Assembly (NCBI RefSeq): GCF_041361345.1
Contig: NZ_JBGKAD010000001.1
Span: forward strand, 1,984,001-2,048,000
Source: Halobaculum sp. MBLA0147
GTDB lineage: Archaea > Halobacteriota > Halobacteria > Halobacteriales > Haloferacaceae
Reading direction: 5' to 3'
DNA length: 64,000 bases
Positions within the stretch are counted from its first letter, which is position 1. Every line of letters starts with the position of its first letter. Shown here in pieces: positions 3,232-38,198 of this stretch. The notes beneath the pieces are model-generated. The model worked only from the letters and a program-made list of their open reading frames with translations, did not search any database and was not told the origin of the DNA. The position numbers were made by a program, and so were the translations under genes.

Positions 3232-3472
3232 CCCGCCGACGACACCGACGGCCTCGCCGTCCGCTGCCGACGGCGGGCTCGCTCCACCACGACTCCTCGC
3301 TCCCGACCGCGTTCTCCACTACACACACTGGGCCCCGGCGACACCCGACTGCACGTCCGCCACTCTCCGACCACTCACACCGCTCGCCCGCTACTTCCTC
3401 GCGTCTCTGCGAAACATACTCTCGCCAGTAGTAGTGATTCACACGAACGCAACTAACCTGCGATCAGATACG

Positions 3473-3486
3473 GCAAATCTTTTGTG
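3473..3486 (+). promoter_or_regulatory. TATA-like element of first subtilisin gene
   Basis: The AT-rich string GCAAATCTTTTGTG lies 25-38 nt before ATG 3511, where a TATA box for a leaderless transcript is expected. The identical 14 bases occur before the second protease gene (4799-4812), so the promoter was duplicated with the gene. Confidence 0.7.
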
Positions 3487-3510
3487 CCTGCGTGGTAGAG
3501 GCACACTTGC

Positions 3511-4689
3511 ATGTCAGACAGTGACGTGTCACGACGGGGCGCACTGCGCACGATCGGGGCGGCGGCCGGCGCGGCGGGCGTGTCGGGGCTCGCCTCCGCG
3601 AATCCGGGCGAGAAGGTCGAAGTGAACGTCGGCTTCGAGAACGACCGTGGAGCGGGGGCCTTCCGCCGGAAGGCGGACGAGGTGGTACGGGAGTTCGACT
3701 TCGACGCCGGCACCGCGCGGATGCCGAAGGCGGCCGCCGACGGGTTGGAGAACAACCCACACATCCGGTACGTGGAAGAGAACGGGACGATGCAGGCACT
3801 CGGTGAGACGGAGCCGTACGGGATCGACCGCGTCGACGCGGACGTGACGCGAGCGAACGGGACCACCGGCAAGGGTGCCGACATCGCGATCATCGACACC
3901 GGGATCGACTCCGACCACCCGGACCTGCAGGCGAACCTCGGGAGCGGGAAGGCGTTCGTCGAGTGTGGCACCGGCGGGTTCACGGGGAGTTGTGCGTTCT
4001 CGGGCAACAGCAACGACTGCAACGAGTCGTGGGACGACGACAACGACCACGGCACCCACTGTGCGGGCACCGCCGACGCCGTCGACAACGCCCGCGACGT
4101 GGTCGGCGTCGCGACGGAGGCGACACTCCACGCGGTGAAGGTGCTGGACTGTGGCGGCTCGGGGACGTTCTCGGACATCGCCGCGGGGATCGAGTACACC
4201 GCCAACCAGGGCTGGGACGTGGGGAGTCTGAGTCTCGGCGGCTCCAGCGGCTCCTCCGCGCTGAAGGACGCCGTCCAGTACGCCACCGACAAGGGGGTCA
4301 CGCTCGTCGCCGCGGCCGGGAACTCCGGGCCGTGTACGGACTGTGTCGGCTTCCCGGCCGCCTACAGCGAGGTGATCGCCGTCTCCGCGACCACGTCGAG
4401 TGACACCCTCGCGGACTTCTCCTCGACGGGGCCGGAGGTCGAACTCGCCGCGCCCGGGAAGAACGTGCTCTCGACGGTCCCCGGCGGGACGACGGAGTTC
4501 TCCGGCACGTCGATGGCGTGTCCCCACGTCGCCGGTGCCGCCGGTCTGCTCGCCGCCGACGGCGTCTCCGACGTGGAGACGACACTGAAGACCGAAGCCG
4601 AGGACATCGGCCTCGCCAGCAACGAGTCCGGGAGCGGGCTGCTCGACGCCGCCGCGGCCGCCGGTCTCGACTCCAGCGACTCCACTTGA
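3511..4689 (+). CDS. Tat-exported subtilisin-like serine protease (copy 1)
   Basis: A 392-residue secreted S8-family protease. It opens with a twin-arginine signal (SRRGALRTIGAAAGAAG) cleaved near SASA/ASANP. An inhibitor I9-like propeptide (about residues 31-100) and a catalytic domain follow. The triad is Asp129 (IIDTGID), His180 (DHGTHCAG) and Ser334 (GTSMACPH), with oxyanion-hole Asn271 (AAGNSG). It resembles halolysins but lacks their usual C-terminal extension, ending soon after the Ser region. It contains seven or more cysteines (including CTDC at 275-278), unusual for haloarchaeal enzymes and suggestive of disulfides. The start is supported by the TATA-like element and by the paralogue. 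It probably degrades extracellular protein or acts in competition. Confidence 0.95.
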   Translation: MSDSDVSRRGALRTIGAAAGAAGVSGLASANPGEKVEVNVGFENDRGAGAFRRKADEVVREFDFDAGTARMPKAAADGLENNPHIRYVEENGTMQALGETEPYGIDRVDADVTRANGTTGKGADIAIIDTGIDSDHPDLQANLGSGKAFVECGTGGFTGSCAFSGNSNDCNESWDDDNDHGTHCAGTADAVDNARDVVGVATEATLHAVKVLDCGGSGTFSDIAAGIEYTANQGWDVGSLSLGGSSGSSALKDAVQYATDKGVTLVAAAGNSGPCTDCVGFPAAYSEVIAVSATTSSDTLADFSSTGPEVELAAPGKNVLSTVPGGTTEFSGTSMACPHVAGAAGLLAADGVSDVETTLKTEAEDIGLASNESGSGLLDAAAAAGLDSSDST

Positions 4690-6566: not shown

Positions 6567-7496
6567 TCAGCGCAGTTCCTCGTACAGCTCCTCGGCGGCC
6601 CGTCGGACGGCCTCGTCGCTGGACCGCGGCGGTTCCCAGCCGAGCGCGGCCAACTTCTCGACGGAGAGGCGCATCTTCGGCACGTCACCCGTCCAGCCGC
6701 GGTCCCCGCCGGTGTACTCGTACTCGGGGTCCAGCCCCATCACGTCGCTCACCACGTCGGCGATGCGGTTGACCGAGGTGGTCGTCCGCGCCCCGAGGTT
6801 GTAGGTGTTGAGCGTGGCGTCGGCGTGTTCGACGACGTGACAGATGGCGTCGACACAGTCCTCGACGTGGAGGTACGACTTCTCCTGGCGGCCGTCGCCG
6901 AGGATCGTCAACGTCTCCGGATCGTCCTGTAGTTTCTCGATGAAGTCCGGGACGACGGTGCCGCGCTGGCGCGGGCCGACGATGTTGGCGAACCGGAACA
7001 CCCACGACTGGATCCCGTAGCTGTGGGCGTACGTCGACAGCAGCGCCTCGTCGGCGAGTTTGCTCGAGCCGTAGACGCTGATCGGCTCCAGCGGGGCGTA
7101 GTCCTCCGGCGTCGGACGCGGCGCCTCGCCGTACACCGTCGAGGAGGAGGTGAAGACGAACTCGTCGACGCCCACCTCGCGGGCTCGTTCCAGCAGGGTG
7201 TGTGTCATCTCCGTGTTCCGCTCGAACATGACGCGGTCGTCGTCGAAGTTCGTGTCCGTGATCGCCGCGAGGTGGAACACGGTGTCGACGGACTCGTCGA
7301 GGACCGCCGCCACGTCGTCGGGGTCCGTCACGTCCGTCTCGACGAACGTCGCGGCCTCGGGGACGCGGTCGCGTGCCCCCTTCGAGAGGTCGTCGGCGAC
7401 GACCACGTCGTTGTCCGCCGCGAGTCGAGCCGCGAGGTGCGAGCCGATGAGCCCTGCACCGCCGGTGACCAGAATCCGCCGGTCGGTCAGATCCAT
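6567..7496 (-). CDS. NAD-dependent sugar-nucleotide epimerase/dehydratase
   Basis: A 309-residue extended SDR of the GalE/RmlB type. The NAD-binding motif VTGGAGLIGSH is near the N-terminus, then VFHLAAITDT and SSSTVYGEAP. The catalytic Tyr-Lys pair is in VYGSSKLADE. It acts on a nucleoside-diphosphate sugar, most likely as an epimerase feeding glycosylation of surface proteins; the exact sugar is not readable. The open frame extends upstream of ATG 7496, but that extension is repetitive and unlike the family, so 7496 is chosen. It is convergent with the BsuPI-like gene. Confidence 0.88.
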   Translation of the reverse strand: MDLTDRRILVTGGAGLIGSHLAARLAADNDVVVADDLSKGARDRVPEAATFVETDVTDPDDVAAVLDESVDTVFHLAAITDTNFDDDRVMFERNTEMTHTLLERAREVGVDEFVFTSSSTVYGEAPRPTPEDYAPLEPISVYGSSKLADEALLSTYAHSYGIQSWVFRFANIVGPRQRGTVVPDFIEKLQDDPETLTILGDGRQEKSYLHVEDCVDAICHVVEHADATLNTYNLGARTTTSVNRIADVVSDVMGLDPEYEYTGGDRGWTGDVPKMRLSVEKLAALGWEPPRSSDEAVRRAAEELYEELR

Positions 7497-10970: not shown

Positions 10971-11085
10971 CGAGGGTGAGAGACTCCTCCGCCACCGACG
11001 AGTGTCGGACGACGAGACGCCGACACGCGACCACCGACACGCCGCGACCGACGCCGCTTTGAGAGTCCCGCTCTACCACACTCGC

Positions 11086-11919
11086 ATGAGCGTCCAGATC
11101 GGTGCGCACACGTCCATCGCGGGCGGCGCGTACAACGCGGTCGACGAGCAGGTGGAGATCGGTGGGACCTGCGGCCAGATCTTCAGCCACAGTCCGCAGG
11201 TGTGGCAGGACCCGGACATCGGCGACGACGAGGCCGCACAGTTCCGCGAGCGGTCCGCCGACAACGGCGTCGGCCCGTGGGTGATCCACTCGTCGTACCT
11301 CGTCAACCTCTGTACACCGAAAGACGACCTCCGGCGGAAGTCGATCGACTCGATGCAGAAGGAGGTCGACGCCGCCGCCAAACTCGGCGTCGAGTACGTC
11401 AACGTCCACCTCGGCGCCCACACCGGCGCGGGTGTCGAGCAGGGGCTCGACAACGCCGCCAGCGCCCTGGACGAACTCGACGTGCCCGACGACGTGACGG
11501 TGCTCGTCGAGTCCGACGCCGGGTCGGGGACGAAGCTCGGCGGCGACTTCGAACACCTCGCGGCCGTGTTGGAGCGGTCGGACCAGGCGTTGGGCGTCTG
11601 TGTCGACACCGCCCACGCGTTCGCGGCCGGCTACGACCTCTCGACACCCGAGGGTGTCGACGAGACGGTCGCCGAGTTCGACGACGTGGTCGGCCTCGAA
11701 CACCTCCACTGTCTCCACCTCAACGACTCGAAACACGGCTGCGGGACGAACAAGGACGAACACGCACACGTCGGGGAGGGGAAGATCGGTGAGGCCGGGA
11801 TGCGCCGGATCGTCAACCACCCGGACCTGCGTGAGTTGCCGTTCGTACTGGAGACGCCCACCGAGGACGGCAAGAGCTTCGCGTGGAACGTCGAGCGGGT
11901 GCGCGAACTCCGCGAGTGA
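11086..11919 (+). CDS. nfo: Endonuclease IV (AP endonuclease)
   Basis: A 277-residue TIM-barrel apurinic/apyrimidinic endonuclease that incises DNA 5' of abasic sites in base-excision repair. The family pattern is clear from the start ([15 protein letters not shown]), through [75 protein letters not shown] and [13 protein letters not shown]. These include the metal-binding His, Glu and Asp residues. Length is normal. A CGCTTTGAGA element 22-31 nt upstream supports ATG 11086 and leaderless transcription. Confidence 0.96.
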
Positions 11920-13609: not shown

Positions 13610-14217
13610 GACCGACCCTCCTCGACGAGTGGTGCGATCAGCTCGTCCAGTTCCTCGAACGACCGCGCGTTGACACCGCTGCGCCACCCGGAGGTCACCG
13701 TGTCGCTCGCCGGCTCGCCGTCCCGCTCGAACAGGAGGTTCGTCGGGTAACTGTCCGCGTCCCACCGCTGTGTGGCGGCGAGGGACGCGTCGCTCACGAC
13801 CGGCCAGGTCGCGTCGTACTCCTCCCAGAACGCCTCGATGGCCGCCTCGTCCACCTGTGGCGTGACCGACACCATGTGGAGCTGTGAGGGGTCGTACTTC
13901 GCACGCAGTTTCCGGAACGCCGGCATCTCCTCCTTACACGGGCCACACCACGTGGCGAAGAAGTTGACCAGCGAGACCGTCCCCTCGCGGCGGAGTGGCA
14001 CCGTCCCCGACGGGAGGTCGCCGGCCGTGACGACGGACTCGAGTGCGATCCGCCCGCTCTCGGTCCCGGTCGCTCCGGTCGACTCGCTCCCCGACTCTGC
14101 ACCGCCGCCGGTCGCCTCGGTCGATCCACCGCTCGTCACACCGCTACACCCGGCGAGTGTCCCACTCACCGCCAGTACCGCGGCTGTCAGCACCGTTCGT
14201 CTGTCTGTGGAGGGCAT
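13606..14217 (-). CDS. Membrane-anchored TlpA/ResA-like thioredoxin-fold protein
   Basis: A 203-residue exported protein. A lipoprotein-type signal (DRRTVLTAAVLAVSGTLAGC) is followed by a Ser/Gly/Glu-rich linker (about 25-55) and a thioredoxin fold with active site WCGPC in VNFFATWCGPCKEEM. The TlpA/AhpC-TSA features VSVTPQVDEAAIEAF and the cis-Pro in SYPTNLLFE are present. It probably reduces or rearranges disulfides on the outer face, possibly for cytochrome maturation. It is the first gene of a three-gene coupled operon with the CcdA-like electron donor. A TTTTAGCC element near 14259-14268 may be its promoter. Confidence 0.9.
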   Translation of the reverse strand: MPSTDRRTVLTAAVLAVSGTLAGCSGVTSGGSTEATGGGAESGSESTGATGTESGRIALESVVTAGDLPSGTVPLRREGTVSLVNFFATWCGPCKEEMPAFRKLRAKYDPSQLHMVSVTPQVDEAAIEAFWEEYDATWPVVSDASLAATQRWDADSYPTNLLFERDGEPASDTVTSGWRSGVNARSFEELDELIAPLVEEGRS

Positions 14218-14465
14218 CGGCGGTGCGTAGGATCGTTCGACAAAGAGCGTACCGGTGGCTAAAAGCCCGTTCGTAGTCTCTACCGGCACACGAGCCGCTC
14301 CCCGGTCGTCGGTGTATCCGCCTCGTGTGTCGGCGCTCGCGGTGACCGGCGGTGTCCGTGTGGCGGTGTCCGATCCTCCCGTCTCTTCTCTGTTAGATGC
14401 TGTCGACGAGTGGGACGAACATGTTAGCACCGGGTTGTAGGGTGCCGTGGTGCGTCGGTCCGTGT

Positions 14466-14975: not shown

Positions 14976-15676
14976 GCCTCACCTCCACAACGGGTTCGTC
15001 TGGAACCCCTCCGGTGGTCCCAAGCCGACGAGGAGCGGTTTATGCTTCAACCCCACAACGGGTTCGTCTGGAACTCCCGGTGAGGAACTGGATGACCCCG
15101 ACGACGACGAGCTTCAACCCCACAACGGGTTCGTCTGGAACGACGACGGTATGACCGCACTGCGCGACGAGTACGTCGCTTCAACCCCACAACGGGTTCG
15201 TCTGGGACGCCCGCCCGACGAGGAGACAGTCGCCGTCTACAGTCGCTTCAACCCCACAACGGGTTCGTCTGGAACGGGGCTTTAAGTACCCCATGTGGTA
15301 CGCCGAAACACCGCTTCAACCCCACAACGGGTTCGTCTGGAACCGGGCCACTGGCGTGGGGATGGTCGCTGTTGAGGCTTCAACCCCACAACGGGTTCGT
15401 CTGGAACGAGATCGGGCGCGACGGACTGCGCCGTGTGGAGCGGGCTTCAACCCCACAACGGGTTCGTCTGGAACTCTGGCCGATCGCGACGCGCCCAGGG
15501 CGTGAGCCGGCTTCAACCCCACAACGGGTTCGTCTGGAACCAGTCGCTTGATCGATATCTGCCGTCCCCTTTTTGAGGCTTCAACCTCACAACGGGTTCG
15601 TCTGGAACCGGCGGTCCACGTCCCTCCGGGTGGGCTGGCGGTCGCGCTTCAACCCCACAACGGGTTCGTCTGGAAC
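14976..15676 (-). CRISPR. CRISPR array 1: 11 repeats of 31 nt, 10 spacers
   Basis: Repeats read GCTTCAACCCCACAACGG...TCGTCTGGAAC on the plus strand. They start at 14976, 15044, 15111, 15178, 15245, 15313, 15377, 15444, 15510, 15578 and 15646. Spacers are 33-37 nt and all different. The reverse complement begins GTTCCAGACGAACCC and ends GGTTGAAGC. That matches the haloarchaeal type I-B repeat class (GTTTCAGACGAACCC...GGTTGAAGC) with one extra base. The array is therefore transcribed on the minus strand from a leader at 15677 and above. The most distal repeat (14976-15006) has three changes; the repeats at 15178 and 15578 have one each. No cas genes are in the window, so any activity must use proteins encoded elsewhere. 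Confidence 0.97.
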
Positions 15677-35737: not shown

Positions 35738-35880
35738 GGTGGTGTGGTTTCCCGTCGGGTGGTGGGCCCGATTACGTGGACCTTTATGAAGGCTCTGTAC
35801 GGTGGGGGTCCACGTAAGCGGGGCGTGGTGTCGCGGGTGCAGAGAAAGCTATAGGTGGTGTGGGGCAGATATCACCCCCT
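35738..35880 (+). promoter_or_regulatory. Leader of CRISPR array 2
   Basis: A 143-nt noncoding region between the stop of the membrane protein gene and the first repeat. It is richer in A+T than its surroundings (CTTTATGAAGG near 35782, AAAGCTATAGG near 35847) and ends ATATCACCCCCT at the first repeat. The array's terminal degeneration lies at the opposite end, so this side is the leader and transcription is on the plus strand. Confidence 0.75.
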
Positions 35881-38198
35881 GTCGCAGCGGCCAGGAAACC
35901 CACTCCGGGATTGAAACCGCGCCGGTACTGGCTCGGTACTAACCGGAGGTATAAGTGTCGCAGCGGCCAGGAAACCCACTCCGGGATTGAAACGACACGC
36001 TCACCGCCAACGAGATCGCCGCGGGGACGAGTCGCAGCGGCCAGGAAACCCACTCCGGGATTGAAACTCACGGCGTCCTGGTCGTGGGAGCACGAGGCCG
36101 CCGCGTCGCAGCGGCCAGGAAACCCACTCCGGGATTGAAACATGGAGTCGCTGGATGCCCTCGCGTCGAACGTCGCCGTCGCAGCGGCCAGGAAACCCAC
36201 TCCGGGATTGAAACGATCGTCTCGGCCGAGCACGGCCTCCTCAACCCGGTCGCAGCGGCCAGGAAACCCACTCCGGGATTGAAACTGCCGGTGTACAAGC
36301 ACCACGTCGTCGTGAGTCCCGACGTCGCAGCGGCCAGGAAACCCACTCCGGGATTGAAACACATCGCCGAAGCACGTTCCGTCCGACCGGCCGACGGTCG
36401 CAGCGGCCAGGAAACCCACTCCGGGATTGAAACTTCGTCCGCGAACTCCACGCGACGACGAACCGGCTGTGTCGCAGCGGCCAGGAAACCCACTCCGGGA
36501 TTGAAACACATCGGAGAGCAGATCTCGAACCGCGTGAACGCGGGGGTCGCAGCGGCCAGGAAACCCACTACGGGATTGAAACCCGGACGACGCGCTCGAC
36601 AAGTGTCGCACGGCGCTCGAGGTCGCAGCGGCCAGGAAACCCACTACGGGATTGAAACTAGCACTCGCCCTCGATCGTCTCGTAGACGCCGGCCGTCGCA
36701 GCGGCCAGGAAACCCACTACGGGATTGAAACACGATCCGGATACCGTTGCCGTCGGCCGACAGTCGGGTCGCAGCGGCCAGGAAACCCACTACGGGATTG
36801 AAACTCCTGAAGCTGTCCGAAGGATCTGGCGTACTCCACTGTCGCAGCGGCCAGGAAACCCACTACGGGATTGAAACGGGAGATCACACGCGATGTCCGT
36901 GTCTCCGGCCAGTGGGTCGCAGCGGCCAGGAAACCCACTACGGGATTGAAACCACCAGTCCAACATCTCTCGACACCTCAAATCCGTGTGTCGCAGCGGC
37001 CAGGAAACCCACTACGGGATTGAAACTGGCAGGGCTCGCGGTCGAGCGGAACGAGAGTCGAAGTCGCAGCGGCCAGGAAACCCACTACGGGATTGAAACT
37101 CGTCGCCGTCGCCCTCGAACCGCCCGACGACGACGTTGTCGCAGCGGCCAGGAAACCCACTACGGGATTGAAACGGTTCGAGCGGACGACGGCCGTCGCG
37201 GACGTGGTGTGTCGCAGCGGCCAGGAAACCCACTACGGGATTGAAACATGCAGATGGGAGAGCGGAACGCTCTGATCGGTGGTCGCAGCGGCCAGGAAAC
37301 CCACTACGGGATTGAAACATATAGCCGGCCGGAGCCTCGGCCCCGAGACCCCCGGTCGCAGCGGCCAGGAAACCCACTACGGGATTGAAACGCCGCCCGT
37401 CGCCGGGCCACTGCTACAACCTGATGGGTCGCAGCGGCCAGGAAACCCACTACGGGATTGAAACAGCACGTATTTCGAAGACGTTCCCGCCGCCGAGGGT
37501 CGCAGCGGCCAGGAAACCCACTACGGGATTGAAACCAGTATAGTGTCTGCCACCACCATTATGTGTGTAGAGTCGCAGCGGCCAGGAAACCCACTACGGG
37601 ATTGAAACATCCGCTCGCGTCCTTCCCGCGGGTCCCAGGCGCGGGTCGCAGCGGCCAGGAAACCCACTACGGGATTGAAACTCGACACTCTGGTTGCGGG
37701 GCGGGTTCCGGCCGCGGAGTCGCAGCGGCCAGGAAACCCACTACGGGATTGAAACCGCGAAGCGGACGATCGGCTACGGCGCCATCGGCGTGGTCGCAGC
37801 GGCCAGGAAACCCACTACGGGATTGAAACAGGACTGTGACATGGAGGACGAGTACGACGCGATCGTCGCAGCGGCCAGGAAACCCACTACGGGATTGAAA
37901 CTACGTCTTCTTGACCCCGCCGTCACCGTCGTCGGGGACAGTCGCAGCGGCCAGGAAACCCACTACGGGATTGAAACCGTTCCGCCGTGACGCCACTCGT
38001 CGTGGACGTGGAGAGTCGCAGCGGCCAGGAAACCCACTACGGGATTGAAACTAACCGGGTTCGGTGTCACCGCTACCTACGTCCCGTTGTCGCAGCGGCC
38101 AGGAAACCCACTACGGGATTGAAACACGTACGTCGCGATCCGGGGACTCCGAGCAGCAGCGGTCGCAGCGGCCAGGAAACCCACTACGGGAATCGAAC
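35881..38198 (+). CRISPR. CRISPR array 2: 32 repeats of 37 nt, 31 spacers
   Basis: Repeats begin GTCGCAGCGGCCAGGAAACC and end GGGATTGAAAC. Starts include 35881, 35957, 36031, 36105, 36178, 36249, 36324, 36397, 36471, 36546, 36622 and onward to 38015, 38089 and 38162. Spacers are 34-39 nt, all different. The first nine repeats read CACTCCGGG and all later ones CACTACGGG. The last repeat (38162) ends GGGAATCGAAC, with three changes, as expected at the leader-distal end. The ATTGAAAC 3' end is the usual crRNA 5' handle, giving plus-strand transcription. The repeat is unrelated to array 1, so a different Cas system is needed. No cas gene is in the window; the subtype is not determined. Confidence 0.98.

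Follow-up and report, generated by a model that had tools for sequence, protein, structure and literature searches.

The window, the entire 64,000 nt stretch of the Halobaculum sp. MBLA0147 genome analysed here, contains a CRISPR array (35881-38198), referred to as array 2, in which 32 repeats, each 37 nt long, alternate with 31 spacers of 34-39 nt; its repeat arose by chance in none of 100 shuffles. The nine leader-proximal repeats contain CACTCCGGG and the remaining 23 contain CACTACGGG, with no interleaving of the two versions, exactly as an earlier, sequence-only reading had described them, down to the coordinates. Repeats 1-9, all of the CACTCC version and with the full sequence GTCGCAGCGGCCAGGAAACCCACTCCGGGATTGAAAC, form a younger block together with spacers 1-8 (35881-36507, plus strand). 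Beyond the 38 nt spacer 9 (36508-36545, plus strand) lies an older block, composed of repeats 10-32, all of the CACTAC version, and spacers 10-31 (36546-38198, plus strand). Within it, repeats 10-31 differ from the first nine solely in having CACTAC, the other 36 positions being the same, and repeat 32, the terminal repeat on the trailer side (38162-38198, plus strand), is of the CACTAC type with the degenerate 3' end GGGAATCGAAC.

The base that switches, C in the younger block versus A in the older, is base 25 under the repeat boundaries adopted here, rather than base 26 as originally counted. The GGCCAGG motif and the 37 nt length of the repeat are constant across the switch, and the spacers of the two blocks do not differ in either length or G+C content. 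A perfect leader-side block of nine out of 32 repeats represents one arrangement in 28 million (2.8 x 10^7), equivalent to 3.6 x 10^-8. When up to three mismatches were permitted, no other copy of the array 2 repeat was found in the 4.29 Mb, six-contig assembly, nor in 169 further genomes from the same family; it was likewise not found in the viral contigs searched.

No sister array of array 2 was present among the family genomes, and none of its spacers was shared with relatives in those examined, at one genome per species. The genome_contigs collection, from which the array's own genome was possibly left out, contained no match to the leader-repeat pattern. The only matches of array 2 to phage records were weak ones (86%) in Curtobacterium phages, comparison with plasmids returned just related arrays and one weak match, and no viral contig exactly matched the 22-24-base seeds taken from the two youngest spacers; these comparisons thus yielded neither a PAM nor an age for the targets. 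A 14-base overlap between spacer 17 of array 2 and spacer 1 of array A, described below, was discarded, as it corresponds to a common haloarchaeal coding motif that matches many genomes. The window also includes array 1 (15044-15676, minus strand), which has 31 nt repeats of type I-B. Contig C2 (G000, L113) carries a type I-B interference module (cas6, cas8b, cas7, cas5 and cas3) and more than 50 I-B-type repeats, but the assembly yielded no cas1 of type I-B.

The leader and the type I-D system

The leader of array 2 (35771-35880, plus strand) was delimited by alignment with those of arrays A and BC, which flank the type I-D cas operon of the same genome and to which it is 76-82% identical over approximately 110 bp. 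All three leaders terminate in TCACCCCCT, directly abutting repeat 1. This homology at the left of the array, combined with the degenerate terminal repeat at its right, sets a left-to-right polarity from leader to trailer, as had been assumed from the window alone, and does so independently of the variant block.

An inverted repeat is found at the distal end of the leader, with the left arm TTACGTGGACC (35772-35782, plus strand) and the right arm GGTCCACGTAA (35807-35817, plus strand) being recognised through their conserved distance to repeat 1 and their covariation. In haloarchaeal leaders of the I-D type more generally, such an inverted repeat lies between about -110 and -63 relative to repeat 1, at a distance that nearly all related leaders share. 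Across the 27 loci of alignment A1, 25 double-changed cells were counted in the arms, compared with 13.1 in shuffles and no more than four in slid controls. Within this genome the dyad is present in all five I-D-type leaders (those of A, BC and array 2, and two on contig C6), the motif otherwise occurring in just two unrelated places. In the type I-A system of Sulfolobus, adaptation depends on a leader-distal motif (-143 to -94) to which Csa3a binds (PMC9456107); given this precedent, and that csa3 adjoins the I-D cas operon in this genome, the leader inverted repeat is a candidate Csa3 site. The two arrays on C6 (G000, L062), an 81.9 kb plasmid-like contig on which no cas1 was found, lie at 6942-7417 (plus strand) and approximately 3430-4210 (minus strand), and have homologous leaders.

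The sole Cas1 found in the assembly is the Cas1d encoded at C1:746264; no second one was found. It belongs to an operon comprising cas6, cas10d/csc3, csc2, csc1, the I-D cas3', cas4, cas1d and cas2. The products Csc3, Csc2, Csc1 and the I-D Cas3' have NCBIfam matches above cut-off, as do Cas2 and Cas4 with their models. Cas1d is matched best by the I-D model, with a score of 375.6 bits that is slightly below the cut-off of 385, and passes the cut-off of the general Cas1 model. Cas10d is encoded in two overlapping frames, one of 886 aa (L022:8451-11111, covering profile positions 2-781) and one of 195 aa (11075-11662, profile positions 811-946); the latter may represent either a free-standing, Cas11d-like small subunit or the product of a frameshift.

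Array 2 is separated from this operon by 1.27 Mb, and no cas genes were detected among the window proteins scanned around it. Nevertheless, since its leader is homologous to those of A and BC, and since the dyad is limited to the five I-D-type leaders, array 2 is assigned on sequence grounds, as a remote array, to the single, complete type I-D CRISPR-Cas system of the genome. It has in common with the flanking arrays both its leader and its repeat type, although its repeat is 37 nt long, compared with 38 nt for the 35 repeats of array A and for those in the younger portion of BC. The I-D system is presumably active and, with the one adaptation module found lying 1.27 Mb away, the record preserved in array 2 suggests that this array acquires its spacers in trans.

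Repeat versions in related arrays

A set of 33 related arrays, containing 715 repeats, served as a natural control; it includes a few fragments and duplicates, such that the number of independent arrays is somewhat lower. More than one multi-copy repeat type is found in three of the 33: array 2 (9 / 22 + 1, in order from the leader), array BC (14 / 5 / 14) and an array in genome G168 (2 / 2 / 1). In every one of these three, the types form uninterrupted blocks running from leader to trailer, and nearly all other repeat variants in the set are single copies, either interior or attributable to decay at the trailer end. In the systems studied in most detail, spacers are inserted between the leader and repeat 1, with repeat 1 being duplicated in the process, and experiments with the type I-E system of E. 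coli fit inheritance from the leader-proximal repeat (PMC3338789, PMC4081107). As repeat 1 is the repeat that is copied, a mutation within it would reach all later repeats, while one in an interior repeat would remain single. Ordered blocks accompanied by single-copy interior variants are thus what would be expected if repeat 1 alone were copied.

Array BC (G000 C1:747611-750069; L023:1611-4069) runs without a break through 33 intact repeats to a degenerate terminal one, and its three blocks are divided by two version switches. In the older, a single base differs, CACCTC becoming CATCTC. The younger converts GTCGCGACGGGG-AGG to GTCGCAGCGGCCCAGG, involving several changes and the gain of one base (from 37 to 38 nt), with the 3' half of the repeat remaining CATCTC throughout. 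The new 5' half is that of the array A repeat, and the old 5' half is the start of the repeats in G159, a genome of the same genus. It is unlikely that this switch occurred through stepwise mutation, and the sequences instead point to recombination involving the leader and first repeat. The tract exchanged may have been short, as the BC leader, which is 82% identical to that of array 2 and 75.5% identical to that of array A, is not simply the array A leader. In the G168 array (L103, minus strand, approximately 14066-14393 of the reverse complement), the block switch again affects the repeat's 5' half alone, the older type being GTCGCGGCGAGG, which is the repeat of the adjacent array, and the younger GTTGCGACGGGG.

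A broader proposal would be that arrays within a genome swap parts of their leaders and first repeats, with conversion generating new versions, including hybrids and the change from 37 to 38 nt, and acquisition then spreading them. We regard this as improbable as a general account; were it true, BC would be a clear case of exchange between arrays, and array 2 would show a lesser instance of the same process.

Origin of the switch in array 2

The two repeat versions of array 2 very probably result from an A-to-C substitution in a former repeat 1 that was then copied at every later acquisition. Under this model, Cas1d-Cas2, with Cas4, would insert new spacers where the leader meets repeat 1, and two copies of repeat 1 would result once the staggered ends left by integration were repaired. 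At a time when array 2 had 24 repeats, or 23 if the error occurred during duplication itself, the repeat then closest to the leader would have changed from A to C; this is now repeat 9 (36471-36507, plus strand), the oldest CACTCC copy and the putative origin of the change. Later acquisitions would have copied the altered repeat, giving rise to the present repeats 1-8. That A was the older state, and the change from A to C, is suggested by the nine C-type repeats lying at the leader with the 23 A-type repeats behind them, the degenerate terminal repeat included.

Block order, polarity, the related arrays and the experiments in other systems all favour the copying from the leader-proximal repeat that the sequence-only reading had proposed. 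However, its assertion that a single base change must have been inherited in this way was too strong, as the multi-base switch in array BC points to recombination. The division of the spacers that it had estimated holds: 22 (10-31) are surely older than the switch and eight (1-8) surely younger, these being lower bounds for each age class because arrays lose spacers, and spacer 9, ambiguous in age, would have been acquired either just before the mutation or in the same event.

The change falls at a site where variation seems to be tolerated. In the CCC/GGG hairpin of the repeat, base 25 occupies the fourth position of the 5 nt loop, outside both the stem and the 8 nt 3' tag ATTGAAAC. Across related arrays this loop is hypervariable, with A, C, T and G all occurring at its fourth position, and the stem and tag display almost no variation. 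The same fold is predicted for both repeat versions, at -5.3 kcal/mol. Owing to its location outside the stem and tag, the substitution probably leaves crRNA processing unaffected, and it would appear to be neutral.

The alternative that survives best is transfer of C25 into the first repeat of array 2 from another array of the genome, array A with its ACACC loop being an example, through gene conversion or recombination, followed by copying of that repeat. The arrays of this genome have leaders and most repeat bases in common, and exchange of this type has parallels in BC, where the 5'-half switch changed multiple positions, added a base and kept the 3' half while reproducing the 5' half of array A, and in the comparable 5'-half switch of the G168 array. 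In array 2, by contrast, a conversion tract would need to take base 25 yet skip base 24, which is T in array 2 and A in array A, and leave both the repeat length and the GGCCAGG motif unaltered. One substitution is simpler, and no donor fits array 2 equally well; we therefore judge conversion to be unlikely, even though sequence alone cannot separate a substitution from a short conversion tract.

Fusion of a CACTCC array, with its own copy of this leader, ahead of an older CACTAC array would likewise produce two ordered blocks. It is considerably less plausible still, given that no CACTCC array exists elsewhere in the assembly or in the 169 family genomes, that the spacer at the boundary is of normal length (38 nt) with no remnant of a leader, and that the two repeat versions are the same at their other 36 positions. 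Repeat arrays are easily misassembled, but the merging of two alleles or arrays by the assembler can effectively be dismissed, as no result of the analysis points to it, the 31 spacers are distinct, of normal length and in no case common to other arrays, the array lies on a single 3.0 Mb contig, and a variant block positioned exactly at the leader is not what such an artefact would be expected to produce.

Comparison with known patterns of repeat inheritance

Array 2 is a clean natural record of leader-proximal repeat copying in a type I-D array. The pattern follows directly from known adaptation chemistry; it adds a new, clean type I-D example of a mechanism already known rather than a new system, and leaves the general picture of CRISPR adaptation unchanged. 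Its value lies partly in providing an internal time mark, with the 22 older and eight younger spacers usable as two age classes. Taken together, array 2 and BC also form a small natural set, in which point changes occur alongside a single hybrid repeat, with which to ask which repeat positions are tolerated by Cas1-Cas2.

The block pattern in array 2 is that predicted to follow a mutation of repeat 1 from adaptation in the type I-E system of E. coli (PMC4081107, PMC3338789), although array 2 is a natural, type I-D array in which acquisition is deduced from the sequence. Repeat mutations have previously been used to orient arrays (PMC12638026), and polymorphisms of terminal repeats, along with the collapse and refilling of Legionella arrays, have been used to reconstruct array history (PMC8047081). 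As in those cases, repeat variants along array 2 record both history and polarity; the patterns described there, however, mostly reflect decay at the trailer end, whereas the variant block of array 2 is found at the leader end.
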